NCBI RefSeq assembly: GCF_003987175.1
Contig: NZ_PIPM01000003.1
Span: forward strand, 186,001-250,000
From: Aliidiomarina sanyensis
GTDB lineage: Bacteria > Pseudomonadota > Gammaproteobacteria > Enterobacterales > Alteromonadaceae
DNA length: 64,000 bases
Direction of reading: 5' to 3'
The translations under genes and the position numbers were made by a program. The notes under the pieces were generated by a model. That model was not told the origin of the DNA. It did no database searches and worked only from the letters and a program-made list of their open reading frames with translations. Of this stretch, positions 14,459 to 59,976 are shown one piece after another; position 1 is the first letter of the stretch, and each line of letters starts with the position of its first letter.

Positions 14459-15868
14459 TCAGGCATTCTCCTCACGGGCTTGAATAAACTCCAGCGCGAG
14501 CCCAATACGCTCTACCACAACCGCTTGCGGTATAAGAGCGAGTGTGACATCCAACGAGGGTGAATTACCACCCCCTGTGGTTGCAACGCGTAAGGGCATG
14601 CCCACTTTCCCCATACCCACATCCAGTGCCGCACAGGTATCTTGAATCGCTTGCTGTATCGTCTCTGGGGTCCAGCTTGTTAATGCCGCGAAGCGCTGCT
14701 GCACATCGCGCAGTGGTTCACCCGCCACAGGACGCAAATGCTTTTTCGCTGCTTGCTCTTCAAAGCCCGTGACTGGTTCATAAAAATAGCGGCTAATTTC
14801 GGCCATCTCCCGCAAGGTCTTTACCCGTTCCGCTTGCAAGCCCACAATCGCGGTCAAGGCCGGGCCACCGGTCGTAGCAATTCCGAGCTGCTCAAAATGC
14901 CATGCGAGCTCAGCCGCCACTTGCTCAACAGGCAGGGTCTTCATGTAATGCTGGTTGAGCCAATTAAGTTTTTCCGTATTGAAGGCCGACGCTGCTTTGT
15001 TAATATCACTCAGCTTAAAGATGCTGATGAGCTCATCGCGACTAAATACTTCTTGATCACCGTGAGACCAGCCGAGTCGCACCAAATAATTAATCATTGC
15101 TTCCGGCAAATAGCCTTTGTCTCGATACTCTGTGACGCTCACAGCGCCATGACGCTTAGATAACTTCTTTCCATCGTCACCCAAAATCATCGACACGTGC
15201 GCATACTCAGGAATCGGTGCACCAAGCGCCTGCAGGATATTGATCTGCCGCGGTGTATTGTTGATATGGTCCTCACCACGCACCACGTGGGTGATTCCCA
15301 TATCCCAATCGTCCACTACAACACAGAAATTGTAGGTCGGAGTTCCGTCGGTCCGAGCAATAATCAAGTCATCCAATTCTTTGTTTGAAATCTCGATCCG
15401 GCCCCGGACATGATCATCAAAAACCACGCTACCCTCTTGCGGATTGCGAAAACGGATTACGTACGGCTTGCCAGGTTGATCTTCAAGCCCATAACATTTG
15501 CCGTCATAGCGCGGCTTTAAACCGGCCGCCATCTGTTCTTCACGCATTGTCTCGAGCCGCTCATGCGAGCAGTAACACTTGTACGCCTTACCTTCAGCCA
15601 ACAACTGATCAATCACTGTTTGATAACGATCAAAGCGCTTCGTTTGGTAAATGGGAGGCTCATCCCAAGTTAAGCCAAGCCACTCCATCCCTTCAAAAAT
15701 GGCATCGATCGCTTCTTGAGTTGACCGTTCGCGGTCCGTGTCTTCGATCCGAAGCACAAATTTACCACCGGCAGCCCGTGCCACGAGCCAAGCATAAAGC
15801 GCGGTACGTGCACCACCCACGTGGAGATAGCCCGTTGGGCTCGGAGCAAAACGCGAAACAACTGACAT
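14459..15868 (-). CDS. gltX: Glutamyl-tRNA synthetase
   Basis: This class Ib synthetase charges tRNA-Glu. The 469-residue protein carries the HIGH-type signature ([15 protein letters not shown], residues 7-21) and the KMSKS equivalent KLSKRHG near residue 238. The reading frame is open 39 codons further upstream, but the family start [13 protein letters not shown] corresponds to the ATG at 15868. A TATACT -10-like element lies at 15909-15914 (minus strand), between the upstream RNA terminator and the gene, with no good -35. It is followed directly by can. Confidence 0.97.
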
Positions 15869-15947
15869 GCAAGAATCCCTACCATTAAAGTCAAAATGAA
15901 TGGGCCGAAGTATATCAGAAACGAAAAACGACAGGTACGGGCGGGGG

Positions 15948-15979
15948 AAAAAGAAAAGCCGGCGTATCGCTACGCCGAC
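15948..15979 (-). terminator. Rho-independent terminator of the GGA-hairpin RNA
   Basis: On the minus strand GTCGGCGTA-GCGA-TACGCCGGC is followed by TTTTCTTTTT. It separates the RNA unit from gltX, which therefore needs its own promoter in the remaining 79 nt. Confidence 0.85.
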
Positions 15980-16119
15980 TTTCACAAATTAGGGAGCAAC
16001 ATCCGTGTCGCCAATTTCATCCAGAAAGAATGCTTATCCTGCAAACATGTACCGGCATATCCGTGCCGTAAAAACGCAACCGGAACTTCACGGTCCTTAT
16101 GAACGAGCCATTACGTTAT
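15948..16119 (-). ncRNA. Candidate CsrA/RsmA-sequestering RNA (CsrB/RsmY type)
   Basis: No open frame of interest lies here, but the minus strand can fold into five successive hairpins, each with GGA in its loop. They are UUCA-UAAGGACCG-UGAA (16103-16087), CGGCA-CGGAUA-UGCCG (16068-16053), UGC-AGGAUAA-GCA (16043-16031), UUUC-UGGAU-GAAA (16027-16015) and GCGACA-CGGA-UGUUGC (16011-15996). A Rho-independent terminator follows. GGA in a hairpin loop is the established CsrA recognition element, and arrays of them define CsrB, CsrC and RsmX/Y/Z. A TAGACT -10 (16131-16126) with a poor -35 would fit an activator-dependent promoter. The 5' end is estimated. Confidence 0.7.
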
Positions 16120-16163
16120 GGGTGTAGTCTAAAGAACAACAGTTCAGGAAGAAACCGAAGATT

Positions 16164-16192
16164 TGTTACAAAATATTTCAAACTTCGTAACA
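16164..16192. promoter_or_regulatory. Inverted repeat upstream of the GGA-hairpin RNA
   Basis: TGTTAC (16164-16169) and GTAACA (16187-16192) form a 6-bp inverted repeat with a 17-bp A/T-rich spacer, centred about 60 bp upstream of the estimated RNA start. The position suits an activator site. It does not match the known GacA/UvrY box (TGTAAG-N6-CTTACA), so the factor is unknown. Confidence 0.35.
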
Positions 16193-16242
16193 TTCGTGAG
16201 ATGGCGTCGCAGCGGGGCTACTAAATTTATTCGAGAGCAGAA

Positions 16243-16269
16243 ACAAAAAAACTGCCGAGTGGCAGTTTT
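16243..16269 (-). terminator. Terminator of the tRNA-Val operon
   Basis: On the minus strand AAAACTGCC-ACTC-GGCAGTTTTTTT forms a short G/C stem with a T run. It begins 6 nt after the second tRNA-Val. Confidence 0.85.
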
Positions 16270-16274
16270 AGAAA

Positions 16275-16350
16275 TGGTGGATGGTACTGGGTTCGAACCA
16301 GTGACCCCCGCCTTGTAAGGGCGGTGCTCTCCCAGCTGAGCTAACCATCC
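16275..16350 (-). tRNA. tRNA-Val (TAC), distal copy
   Basis: This is a 76-nt cloverleaf with acceptor GGATGGT, anticodon loop CTTACAA and encoded CCA. It is identical to the proximal copy. Confidence 0.98.
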
Positions 16351-16381
16351 ACTGAGATTTCTATGACGTCGATGACATAAC

Positions 16382-16457
16382 TGGTGGATGGTACTGGGTT
16401 CGAACCAGTGACCCCCGCCTTGTAAGGGCGGTGCTCTCCCAGCTGAGCTAACCATCC
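16382..16457 (-). tRNA. tRNA-Val (TAC), proximal copy
   Basis: The sequence and anticodon match the copy at 16275-16350, 31 nt downstream. The strong promoter at 16548-16575 reads into it. Confidence 0.98.
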
Positions 16458-20476: not shown

Positions 20477-21667
20477 GTGGACTACAAACTTTCACAGCGC
20501 GTCAACGCTATCAAACCTTCTCCGACTCTGGCAGTGAGCCAGAAAGCTGCCGAACTCAAAGCGGCTGGCAAAGACGTGATTGGTTTGGGCGTTGGAGAGC
20601 CAGACTTCACTACCCCAGAATTCATTTGCACCGCTGCGAAAGCCGCGATCGACGCTGGCCACACACGTTACACCGCCGTGGATGGCATTCCAGAACTGAA
20701 AAAAGCCGTCTGTGAAAAATTCAAGCGAGATAATCAATTGCACTATGAGCCTAGTGAAATTCTAGTCTCAGCAGGCGGCAAGCATAGTATTTTTAACCTC
20801 CTCACGGCATGGCTCGATGCGGGTGATGAAGTCATCATCCCGGCACCGTATTGGGTTTCCTACCCTGACATGACGCTCTTAGTCGGTGCGGTTCCGGTGG
20901 TTATCGAGGCGGGAATTGAGCAAGCATATAAGATCACGGCAGAGCAGCTAGAAGCGGCCATTACACCCAAAACCAAAATGTTGTTCCTGAATAGTCCATC
21001 CAATCCGACTGGAATGGCCTACAGTGCAGAGGAACTAAAAGCGATTGCGGACGTGCTACGCAAGCACCCGCAGGTATTAATTGCAACCGATGATATGTAT
21101 GAGCACATTCTGTGGACTAACGCTCCGTTCGTAAATCTCCCGATGGTTGCACCAGACCTAAAAGATCGCACAGTCATTCTTTCAGGTGTTTCCAAAGCCT
21201 ACGCCATGACCGGTTGGCGGATTGGATATGCGGCAGGGCCAAAGCCCCTGATCGCCGCCATGAAAAAAGTTCAGTCGCAAAGCACCTCAAACCCAGCGTC
21301 AATTTCACAACATGCTGCGTTAGCCGCATTGACGGGCGACCAATCATTCATTGGTGAGATGGTGACCGAGTTTAAAGCACGTCATGACCGCCTTATCGAA
21401 GGCCTGGCAAAAATTCCCGGACTGAAAGTGCGTCCTGGCGATGGGACCTTCTACGCATTTCCAAATGTGGAAGGCTTAATGGCGATGGTAGGCGTAGACA
21501 GCGATATCGAACTCTGCGAACGCTTACTCAGCGAAGCCAATGTAGCACTCGTTCCCGGTTCCGCCTTTGGGGCTCCTGGACATTTCCGACTTTCTTTTGC
21601 AGCAAGTCGTGAAATCCTCGACGAAGCCGTCAAACGCATCCATGCGTTTGCTGCAAAATATTCGTAA
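20477..21667 (+). CDS. Class I PLP-dependent aminotransferase (aspartate aminotransferase-like)
   Basis: This 396-residue fold-type I aminotransferase carries the PLP lysine in SGVSKAYAMTGWRIGY (about residue 238), NSPSNPTG for PLP contact, and a C-terminal arginine in FRLSFAAS for the substrate alpha-carboxylate. The sequence resembles the subgroup-Ib aspartate/prephenate aminotransferases (MDYKLSQRVNAIKPSPTLAV start) rather than E. coli AspC. The start is GTG with a weak AGGT. The gene stands alone, and its stop codon directly abuts a palindromic repeat array. Confidence 0.88.
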   Translation: MDYKLSQRVNAIKPSPTLAVSQKAAELKAAGKDVIGLGVGEPDFTTPEFICTAAKAAIDAGHTRYTAVDGIPELKKAVCEKFKRDNQLHYEPSEILVSAGGKHSIFNLLTAWLDAGDEVIIPAPYWVSYPDMTLLVGAVPVVIEAGIEQAYKITAEQLEAAITPKTKMLFLNSPSNPTGMAYSAEELKAIADVLRKHPQVLIATDDMYEHILWTNAPFVNLPMVAPDLKDRTVILSGVSKAYAMTGWRIGYAAGPKPLIAAMKKVQSQSTSNPASISQHAALAALTGDQSFIGEMVTEFKARHDRLIEGLAKIPGLKVRPGDGTFYAFPNVEGLMAMVGVDSDIELCERLLSEANVALVPGSAFGAPGHFRLSFAASREILDEAVKRIHAFAAKYS

Positions 21668-21863
21668 CCAACACAACGCGTTGGGTCTGCTCGGGTGGGA
21701 ATCATGCCCGCACACCCAACGCAGTGCGTTGGCTACAATCATCACCCGGTGATAGTATCGCTTCTAGCCCGCACACCCAACGCAGTGCGTTGGCTACAAT
21801 CATCATCCGGTGATAGTATCGCTTCTAGCCCGCACACCCAACGCAATGCGTTGGGTATGATAC
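21668..21863. repeat. REP-like palindrome array, cluster 1, with 61-bp tandem units
   Basis: Four imperfect palindromes with arms CCAACGC/GCGTTGG occur at 21668-21685 (degenerate), 21715-21732, 21776-21793 and 21837-21854. The last three are spaced exactly 61 bp apart, and the 61-bp unit (palindrome, GGCTACAATCATCA, CCGGTGATAG, GCTTCTAG) is tandemly repeated with one substitution. The array begins right after the aminotransferase stop. Confidence 0.9.
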
Positions 21864-22775: not shown

Positions 22776-22870
22776 AAGTAGCCAACGCACCGCGTTGGGA
22801 CTGAAATTCGAAAGCAACTCCATCCCGAGCAAAACCCAACGCCCCGTTACGGAACATGCGTTGGCTACTT
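22776..22870. repeat. REP-like palindromes, cluster 2
   Basis: A 13-bp perfect inverted repeat, AAGTAGCCAACGC at 22776-22788 and GCGTTGGCTACTT at 22858-22870, encloses one full palindrome (CCAACGC-ACC-GCGTTGG) and one degenerate copy. The right edge touches the TAA stop of the PAP2 gene (22869-22871, minus strand). Confidence 0.85.
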
Positions 22871-54128: not shown

Positions 54129-54278
54129 CAAACGCAGACTCCCTAACGCGGCGTTGGGTGCCTATTCCGGCACCGGCATTTTGGCCCGGGGTGGGTAATG
54201 ATCGTAGCCAACGCATTGCGTTGGGCATAAGGCTTACGGCATTTATCAATTTCGGACCCAACGCGATGCGTTGGCTAC
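54125..54278. repeat. REP-like palindromes, cluster 3, between hisIE and norM
   Basis: Full palindromes lie at 54204-54229 (GTAGCCAACGC-ATT-GCGTTGGGCAT) and 54256-54278 (ACCCAACGC-GAT-GCGTTGGCTAC), in opposite orientation. Degenerate copies lie at 54125-54158. The repeats occupy most of the interval between two convergent genes and contain the stop codons of both. No separate terminator is visible, so they may also form the transcript ends. Confidence 0.88.
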
Positions 54279-59828: not shown

Positions 59829-59976
59829 GTAGCCAACGCACCGCGTTGGGCATGCGGGTGAAAGCGATGATCGTAGCCAACGCACCGCGTTGGGCATGAG
59901 GGGTGAAAGCGATGATCGTAGCCAACGCACCGCGTTGGGGAGAAGGCATGGTTCCTTTCCCCAACGCGCCGTTACC
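59829..59976. repeat. REP-like palindromes, cluster 4, upstream of htpG
   Basis: Three same-orientation copies of GTAGCCAACGC-ACC-GCGTTGGG start at 59829, 59873 and 59918 (spacing 44 and 45 bp), separated by a conserved GTGAAAGCGATGATC spacer. A degenerate inverse copy lies at 59959-59976. The cluster lies between the sulfotransferase stop and the htpG promoter. Confidence 0.9.

Follow-up and report, generated by a model that had tools for sequence, protein, structure and literature searches.

Csr sponge RNAs are usually the output of the Gac/BarA-UvrY system. The CsrA consensus reads (A/U)CANGGANG(U/A), and RsmV and RsmW of P. aeruginosa are small extra RsmA-binding RNAs. According to a passage of PMC4005645, RsmZ is 127 nt long and carries four stem-loops and eight GGAs; the same passage gives an ANGGAX hexaloop placed directly on its stem as the best binding arrangement and describes paired GGAs as poor binders. 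For Pseudoalteromonas fuliginea, passages of PMC9927453 and PMC11882849 report little likeness of Pf1 to E. coli CsrB and nine GGAs in Pf3, and PMC9927453 assigns a putative GacA site to Pf1. At the level of titles and abstracts, the literature search returned nothing on an RNA beside gltX or on UvrY loss in the group considered here.

The window, i.e., the whole stretch of DNA analysed, comprises 64 kb of a 2.59-Mb genome (G000:C22:186001-250000), referred to below as the own genome. On its minus strand, a non-coding RNA of about 165 nt with its own promoter and terminator is probably encoded beside gltX and is predicted to titrate CsrA in the manner of RsmX/Y/Z. Taken as a prediction, the sponge reading has good support; as a function it is unproven. 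The gltX-side RNA belongs to a known kind of RNA, of which it is a variant confined to one lineage.

The locus between tRNA-Val and gltX

The order along the minus strand is uvrB, two tRNA-Val(TAC) genes (16275..16457), a terminator, the RNA, a second terminator and gltX (14459..15868), with the gene names in this and the other neighbourhoods assigned by reading ORFs and the ATG of the gltX ORF picked by comparison with relatives. The closest named gltX relative among the matches listed, from which records near the own genome may be missing, is Idiomarina piscisalsi (83%), so that the genome probably belongs to the Idiomarina group. Both flanking terminators named in the sequence-only reading were found, at 16269-16248 for tRNA-Val and at 15983-15954 for the sRNA, the latter an intrinsic terminator of 13 pairs with a T-rich tail. 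The proposed sRNA (15954..16120, minus strand) holds five GGA motifs; its 3′ end is placed from this terminator and its 5′ end, provisionally, from the -10 described below.

The RNA is present in the own genome and in two of the 16 other genomes of the genus (G016 and G013), each time in the gap that separates tRNA-Val from gltX. The sequence-only reading had seen no credible gene here. A 68-aa plus-strand ORF (15896-16102) does cross the locus, but overlapping ORFs, of 40-82 aa in all three carriers, differ among them in place, frame and length, and coding therefore looks unlikely.

The upstream element GAAATATTTTGTAACAAAT (16161..16179, minus strand) is identical in the three carriers in 19 of 19 columns, with adjoining stretches at 27-58% identity, and is probably an activator site, a candidate named from sequence. 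Each carrier genome holds a single copy of its exact 17-mer AATATTTTGTAACAAAT; two mismatches admit one extra site in G013 and two in G016. In the relatives the element reads AATATTT-TGTAAC-AAATATT. The inverted repeat TGTTAC-N17-GTAACA, put forward earlier as the activator site, is indeed present. In the two relatives, however, conservation is limited to the GTAACA half, and the repeat was rejected in that role since its upper arm is not conserved. TAGACT (16126..16131, minus strand) had likewise been proposed as the -10 and is still read as the probable hexamer, with TAGTAT and TATGAT in the relatives; a promoter scan found no promoter on the minus strand. Upstream of the RNA, the best GacA-type boxes in the three carriers score 10-11/17 (shuffle p 0.41-0.88), and no sigma54 promoter for the RNA rose above chance.

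Downstream of the RNA, no terminator was found in G016 or in G013 (by a crude script in the latter), and the gltX promoter and leader are 58-82% identical among the carriers, as conserved as the RNA. These two observations would suit a locus that is mainly a regulated gltX leader, with read-through into gltX and either CsrA or the fold acting in cis. We consider this unlikely, given the strong terminator between RNA and gltX in the own genome and the TATACT-like box directly before gltX in all three carriers, which suggests a separate promoter. Moreover, Rho could terminate the RNA in G016 and G013, where the sequence separating it from gltX is rich in C (34-36%) and poor in G (10-12%).

GGA motifs, folding and conservation

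The GGAs of the own-genome RNA start at 16096, 16062, 16039, 16022 and 16004, and each can be placed in a loop closed by a local stem of 4-7 pairs. That part of the sequence-only reading stands; its claim that all five stems expose their GGA does not, as the own-genome fold exposes the second and fifth alone (unpaired probabilities 0.87 and 0.97) and leaves the first, third and fourth mostly paired. All features that follow lie on the minus strand, with values for the own genome, G016 and G013 in this order. The GGA of hairpin 1 (16087..16103) is unpaired at 0.16, 0.86 and 1.00, and that of hairpin 2 (16053..16068) at 0.87, 0.89 and 1.00. Hairpin 3 (16030..16048) competes with longer stems (0.20, 0.01, 0.09), and site 4 (16015..16027), a local stem in the own genome, gives 0.05, 0.00 and 0.44, with CTGGATGA retained there in all three carriers. 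Hairpin 5 (15995..16012), an ACGGAT hexaloop on a GCGAC/GTTGC stem, is open in every carrier (0.97-1.00). In G016 and G013 the folds thus leave GGAs 1, 2 and 5 open (0.86-1.00), and 3 and 4 tend to pair (0.00-0.44). Several GGAs in loops or single strands, as expected of the sponge class, are therefore seen, two of them open in all three carriers (GGAs 2 and 5, 0.87-1.00) and a third in two, against a background in which 6.6% of 439 GGAs exceed 0.8.

A hand-chosen 6-bp stem, P0, additional to the five stems read earlier, pairs 16116-16111 with 16079-16074 and encloses hairpin 1 (16074..16116, minus strand). G016 and G013 have it in their minimum-energy folds, and that of the own genome lacks it. 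The chain of five hairpins plus an extra 5′ stem reaches -41.8 kcal/mol, 11 kcal/mol above the minimum of -52.8. Measured against shuffles, the RNA body of the own genome has no folding advantage (z = -0.25), and those of G016 (-1.86) and G013 (-2.18) have a modest one.

Counterparts of all five GGAs are found in the three carriers at RNA-body identities of 52% (own genome and G016), 54% (own genome and G013) and 82% (G016 and G013); a sixth GGA in G016 and G013 is paired within the hairpin 2 stem. All six P0 pairs are possible in each carrier; among them, one shows a double change from A-U to C-G and another a C-G/U-G exchange. The stems of hairpins 1, 3 and 5 are likewise pairable in every carrier, as is that of hairpin 2, where one pair is flipped from G-C to C-G; the hairpin 2 arms entered for G016 were unequal in length and stayed outside the pair scoring, its pairing there resting on a separate comparison. 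With three sequences and hand-picked stems, covariation support is thin.

With stems of at least 4 bp, the locus is the sole five-GGA-hairpin cluster in the window, and one of 40 shuffled 64-kb strands holds five GGA hairpins within 130 nt. When 3-bp stems are admitted, the window yields two further minus-strand clusters of five, and 17 of the 40 shuffled strands reach five, so that the GGA pattern on its own is weak. Such counts speak for a chance array without function; nevertheless, the motifs, the pairable stems and the upstream element are kept between diverged flanks, and we regard chance as very improbable.

GGA conservation, which the sequence-only reading had made a check on itself, holds in both relatives that have the locus and, as judged by model R1, goes no further in the genus. 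Run at E up to 10 on all 17 genomes of the genus, R1 gave 30 matches: three strong ones (104-144 bits), including 15995-16119 on the proposed sRNA (104.7 bits), from which R1 was partly built, and 27 at 24.3 bits or less, with nothing above 24.3 bits in the other 14 genomes. Since R1 was built from the same three sequences that it retrieved, it contributes just the absence elsewhere. Eight of the 27 weak matches were examined, with ORFs listed for two. One of them, in G003 (L153), has four GGA hairpins, antisense to a 206-aa ORF, and the GGA array is absent from the remaining seven. Of 147 genomes sampled from the family, three passed E 0.001, namely the own genome, G016 and G166, with G013 apparently outside the sample; the G166 match (23.8 bits) shows no GGA array. 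gltX was located in 16 of the 17 genus genomes, paralogues alone being matched in G006, with the sequence upstream of gltX extracted for seven of the 16, and a scan of these 16 loci and L038 found clusters of four or more GGA hairpins in the three carriers only. A DNA search of 58 relative genomes with a 331-base query matched four, the own genome included. Three of the matches were short: one in G013 (L007) overlaps the genuine RNA, one in G027 (L005) was discarded as lying inside an NtrC-like gene, and the third is L006 in G026.

Hairpin 5 scores 8/8 for the CsrA consensus in all three carriers and is the sole full fit in the own-genome RNA, a score reached by 0.28% of the 1771 GGAs on both strands of the window. 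The other four own-genome sites score 5-6/8, as do 52% of all window GGAs. The abundance of GGA in the window and the good exposure of just two or three of the motifs would be in keeping with a small RNA that acts in trans by other means, through base-pairing or otherwise, and in which the GGAs are incidental. We hold this to be quite improbable, because the five GGAs have counterparts in three species although the stems change, and because hairpin 5 is a complete CsrA-type site in all three.

UvrY, csrB and the sigma54-type box in the genus

The sponge reading requires CsrA, and the own genome has three csrA genes; their absence would have refuted the sequence-only reading. Copy 1 lies in the order alaS-csrA-tRNA-Ser, and its product matches solved CsrAs almost exactly over 57 residues. 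Besides this alaS-linked gene, copies 2 and 3 (L002 and L003) are on contig G000:C12, one among unrelated ORFs and the other with a Tex-like gene on one side and, on the other side, a GreB-like gene and its neighbour.

None of the 17 genus genomes holds a UvrY/GacA match (NF007018) over the 280-bit cut-off, the best reaching 149.9 bits. Outside the genus, 16 of 17 genomes from elsewhere in the family exceed the cut-off, the seventeenth (G027) giving two pieces below it; in the relatives' set, 34 of the 58 genomes do so. In both the own genome and G002 the best match is one and the same NarL-type regulator, adjacent to a kinase and a PriA-like gene, and for this reason was read as not being UvrY. 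Against this, a passage of PMC7366521 states that Idiomarina has GacS and GacA; it may or may not refer to the genus and the threshold used here, and it lowers the odds of the UvrY-loss scenario given below.

The CsrB model RF00018 is over its cut-off in none of the 17 genus genomes and, at E up to 1, matches in eight, the own genome not among them. Its better full-length matches point to an RNA rich in GGA that is flanked by tadA and a gene for an NhaC-like antiporter. For this genus RF00018 is a weak model, as it missed the csrB-like RNA of G008, which was seen by synteny. With tadA located in all 17 genomes, a csrB-like RNA precedes it in five, namely G005 (L136), G008 (L137), G010 (L133), G011 (L134) and G012 (L135). 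No csrB was found at tadA in the other 12, the own genome included; there tadA follows closely behind the antiporter gene or, in the own genome, comes after repeats. This gap in the own genome (L138) contains, where five genomes have csrB, two copies of a longer repeat with a palindrome like CCAACGCANTGCGTTGG. Ten such palindromes were noted in the window, at 21667-21855, 22781-22799, 54207-54275 and 59832-59939, and the pattern has 20 matches over both strands against 0.14 expected.

A TGGC-N7-TTGC sigma54-type box lies upstream of all five csrB-like RNAs of the genus, none of which has a GacA box above chance. The shuffle p values of the box in these stretches (0.005-0.095) tell only how rare it is, since it was the TGGC-N7-TTGC match that served to position them. 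From other genera of the family, 15 csrB loci were collected, one of which (L200), cut by its contig, was dropped, and the 300 bases before the model match were scored; among the remaining 14, ten have a GacA box of 14-17/17 and four score 9-11, and none attains a sigma54 score of at least 9/11. The GacA consensus used resembles the site given in a passage of PMC9927453. In its passage on Pseudomonas syringae, PMC5568370 predicts an RpoN-like site for RNAs of the RsmA pathway, so that a sigma54-driven sponge has a predicted precedent.

Where tadA has no csrB beside it, a search for the sigma54 box followed by two AGGAs gave hits in two of the 12 genomes, judged from their sequence to be a gene start and coding sequence. 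This pattern is a weak test, since it recovers three of the five known csrB-like RNAs. No second sponge was found in the own genome by RF00018, R1 or this pattern, and by these searches nine genomes (G001, G002, G003, G004, G006, G007, G009, G014 and G015) have neither csrB at tadA nor the gltX-side RNA. An antiporter tree of the 17 genomes splits the five with csrB from the twelve without (100/100) and groups the three carriers as a clade (100/99). In a GltX tree of 16 genomes and three outgroups, eleven genomes without csrB form a clade (100/99), inside which G013 and G016 are joined (99/97) and the place of the own genome is not settled.

It is possible, if rather doubtful, that the whole genus lost UvrY/GacA and rebuilt its sponge control. 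In this scenario csrB would have come under a sigma54-type promoter and later disappeared from its site in a sub-lineage, and in one clade a minimal five-GGA RNA by gltX, controlled through a new activator site, would have replaced it as the sponge. The simplest account would comprise UvrY loss, csrB under sigma54 in one lineage, disappearance of csrB from its site in the other, and acquisition of the gltX-side RNA by a single clade, an order that we infer. The setting, a genus without a UvrY match over the cut-off, is more surprising than the RNA itself.

Proposed function and comparison with known sponge RNAs

The points favouring a sponge are the five GGA counterparts, the changed and still pairable stems, the full consensus fit of hairpin 5, the openness of GGAs 2 and 5 in all carriers, the identical upstream element between diverged flanks and the presence of csrA. 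Counted against it are the pairing of GGAs 3 and 4 (in the own genome also 1), the background-like consensus scores of the other four sites, the unremarkable folding of the own-genome body, a gltX promoter and leader conserved to the same degree, the sixth GGA, the terminator not found in G016 and G013, the missing Rfam match and the thin covariation. The CsrA-sponge reading proposed earlier keeps its csrA genes and conserved GGAs, but the conserved upstream element is a different one and no GacA-type box rises above chance.

We propose that the RNA would be made from the minus strand from its own promoter, be ended by its terminator, bind CsrA through its GGA motifs and thereby draw CsrA off mRNAs. 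Under the rule given in PMC4005645 for ANGGAX hexaloops and paired GGAs, hairpin 5 would be the main site and hairpin 2 the next, with hairpin 1 following; GGAs 3 and 4 would be weak unless CsrA binding opened the longer stem. The likeliest activator would be a protein reading the conserved AT-rich element, and control by BarA/UvrY is improbable since no UvrY exceeds the cut-off in the genus. If true, the genus would be a natural case of a replaced input to a global regulator, in which csrA is kept without a recognisable UvrY and the sponge is, depending on the species, a sigma54-type csrB or a short RNA. It would also indicate how small a sponge RNA can become. Rfam models can overlook such RNAs in ordinary gammaproteobacteria.

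The CsrB family (RF00018), including the five tadA-side RNAs of the genus, shares with the gltX-side RNA a GGA array, a terminator and presumed CsrA titration. RF00018 has no match in the window, and the genus csrB-like RNAs differ in carrying 12-14 GGAs between the sigma54 box and the terminator and in their place between antiporter gene and tadA, whereas the gltX-side RNA has five GGAs, a different place and a different upstream region. RsmV and RsmW resemble it by their general description.

Pf1, Pf2 and Pf3, as presented in the cited passages, are likewise Csr RNAs of a marine gammaproteobacterium, but they have more GGAs, were experimentally tested and, in the case of Pf1, carry a putative GacA site. 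The mode of action of the gltX-side RNA would be closer to that of the short RsmX/Y/Z sponges than to that of the relatives' long csrB. The Rfam models that the sequence-only reading had named as a check (CsrB, RsmX, RsmY and RsmZ) gave no match: none of the six cmscan matches in 15700-16400 at E up to 10 belongs to the RsmX, RsmY or RsmZ families, and the two that touch the RNA, suhB (16.4 bits) and ar35 (14.9), are far below gathering. Apart from this, the gltX-side RNA is unlike RsmX, RsmY and RsmZ in having five GGAs, no GacA-type box above chance and no UvrY over the cut-off; it is like these Pseudomonas RNAs, as far as the passage of PMC4005645 describes them, in being short, with few GGA stem-loops and a terminator, and in the ANGGAX form of its hairpin 5.
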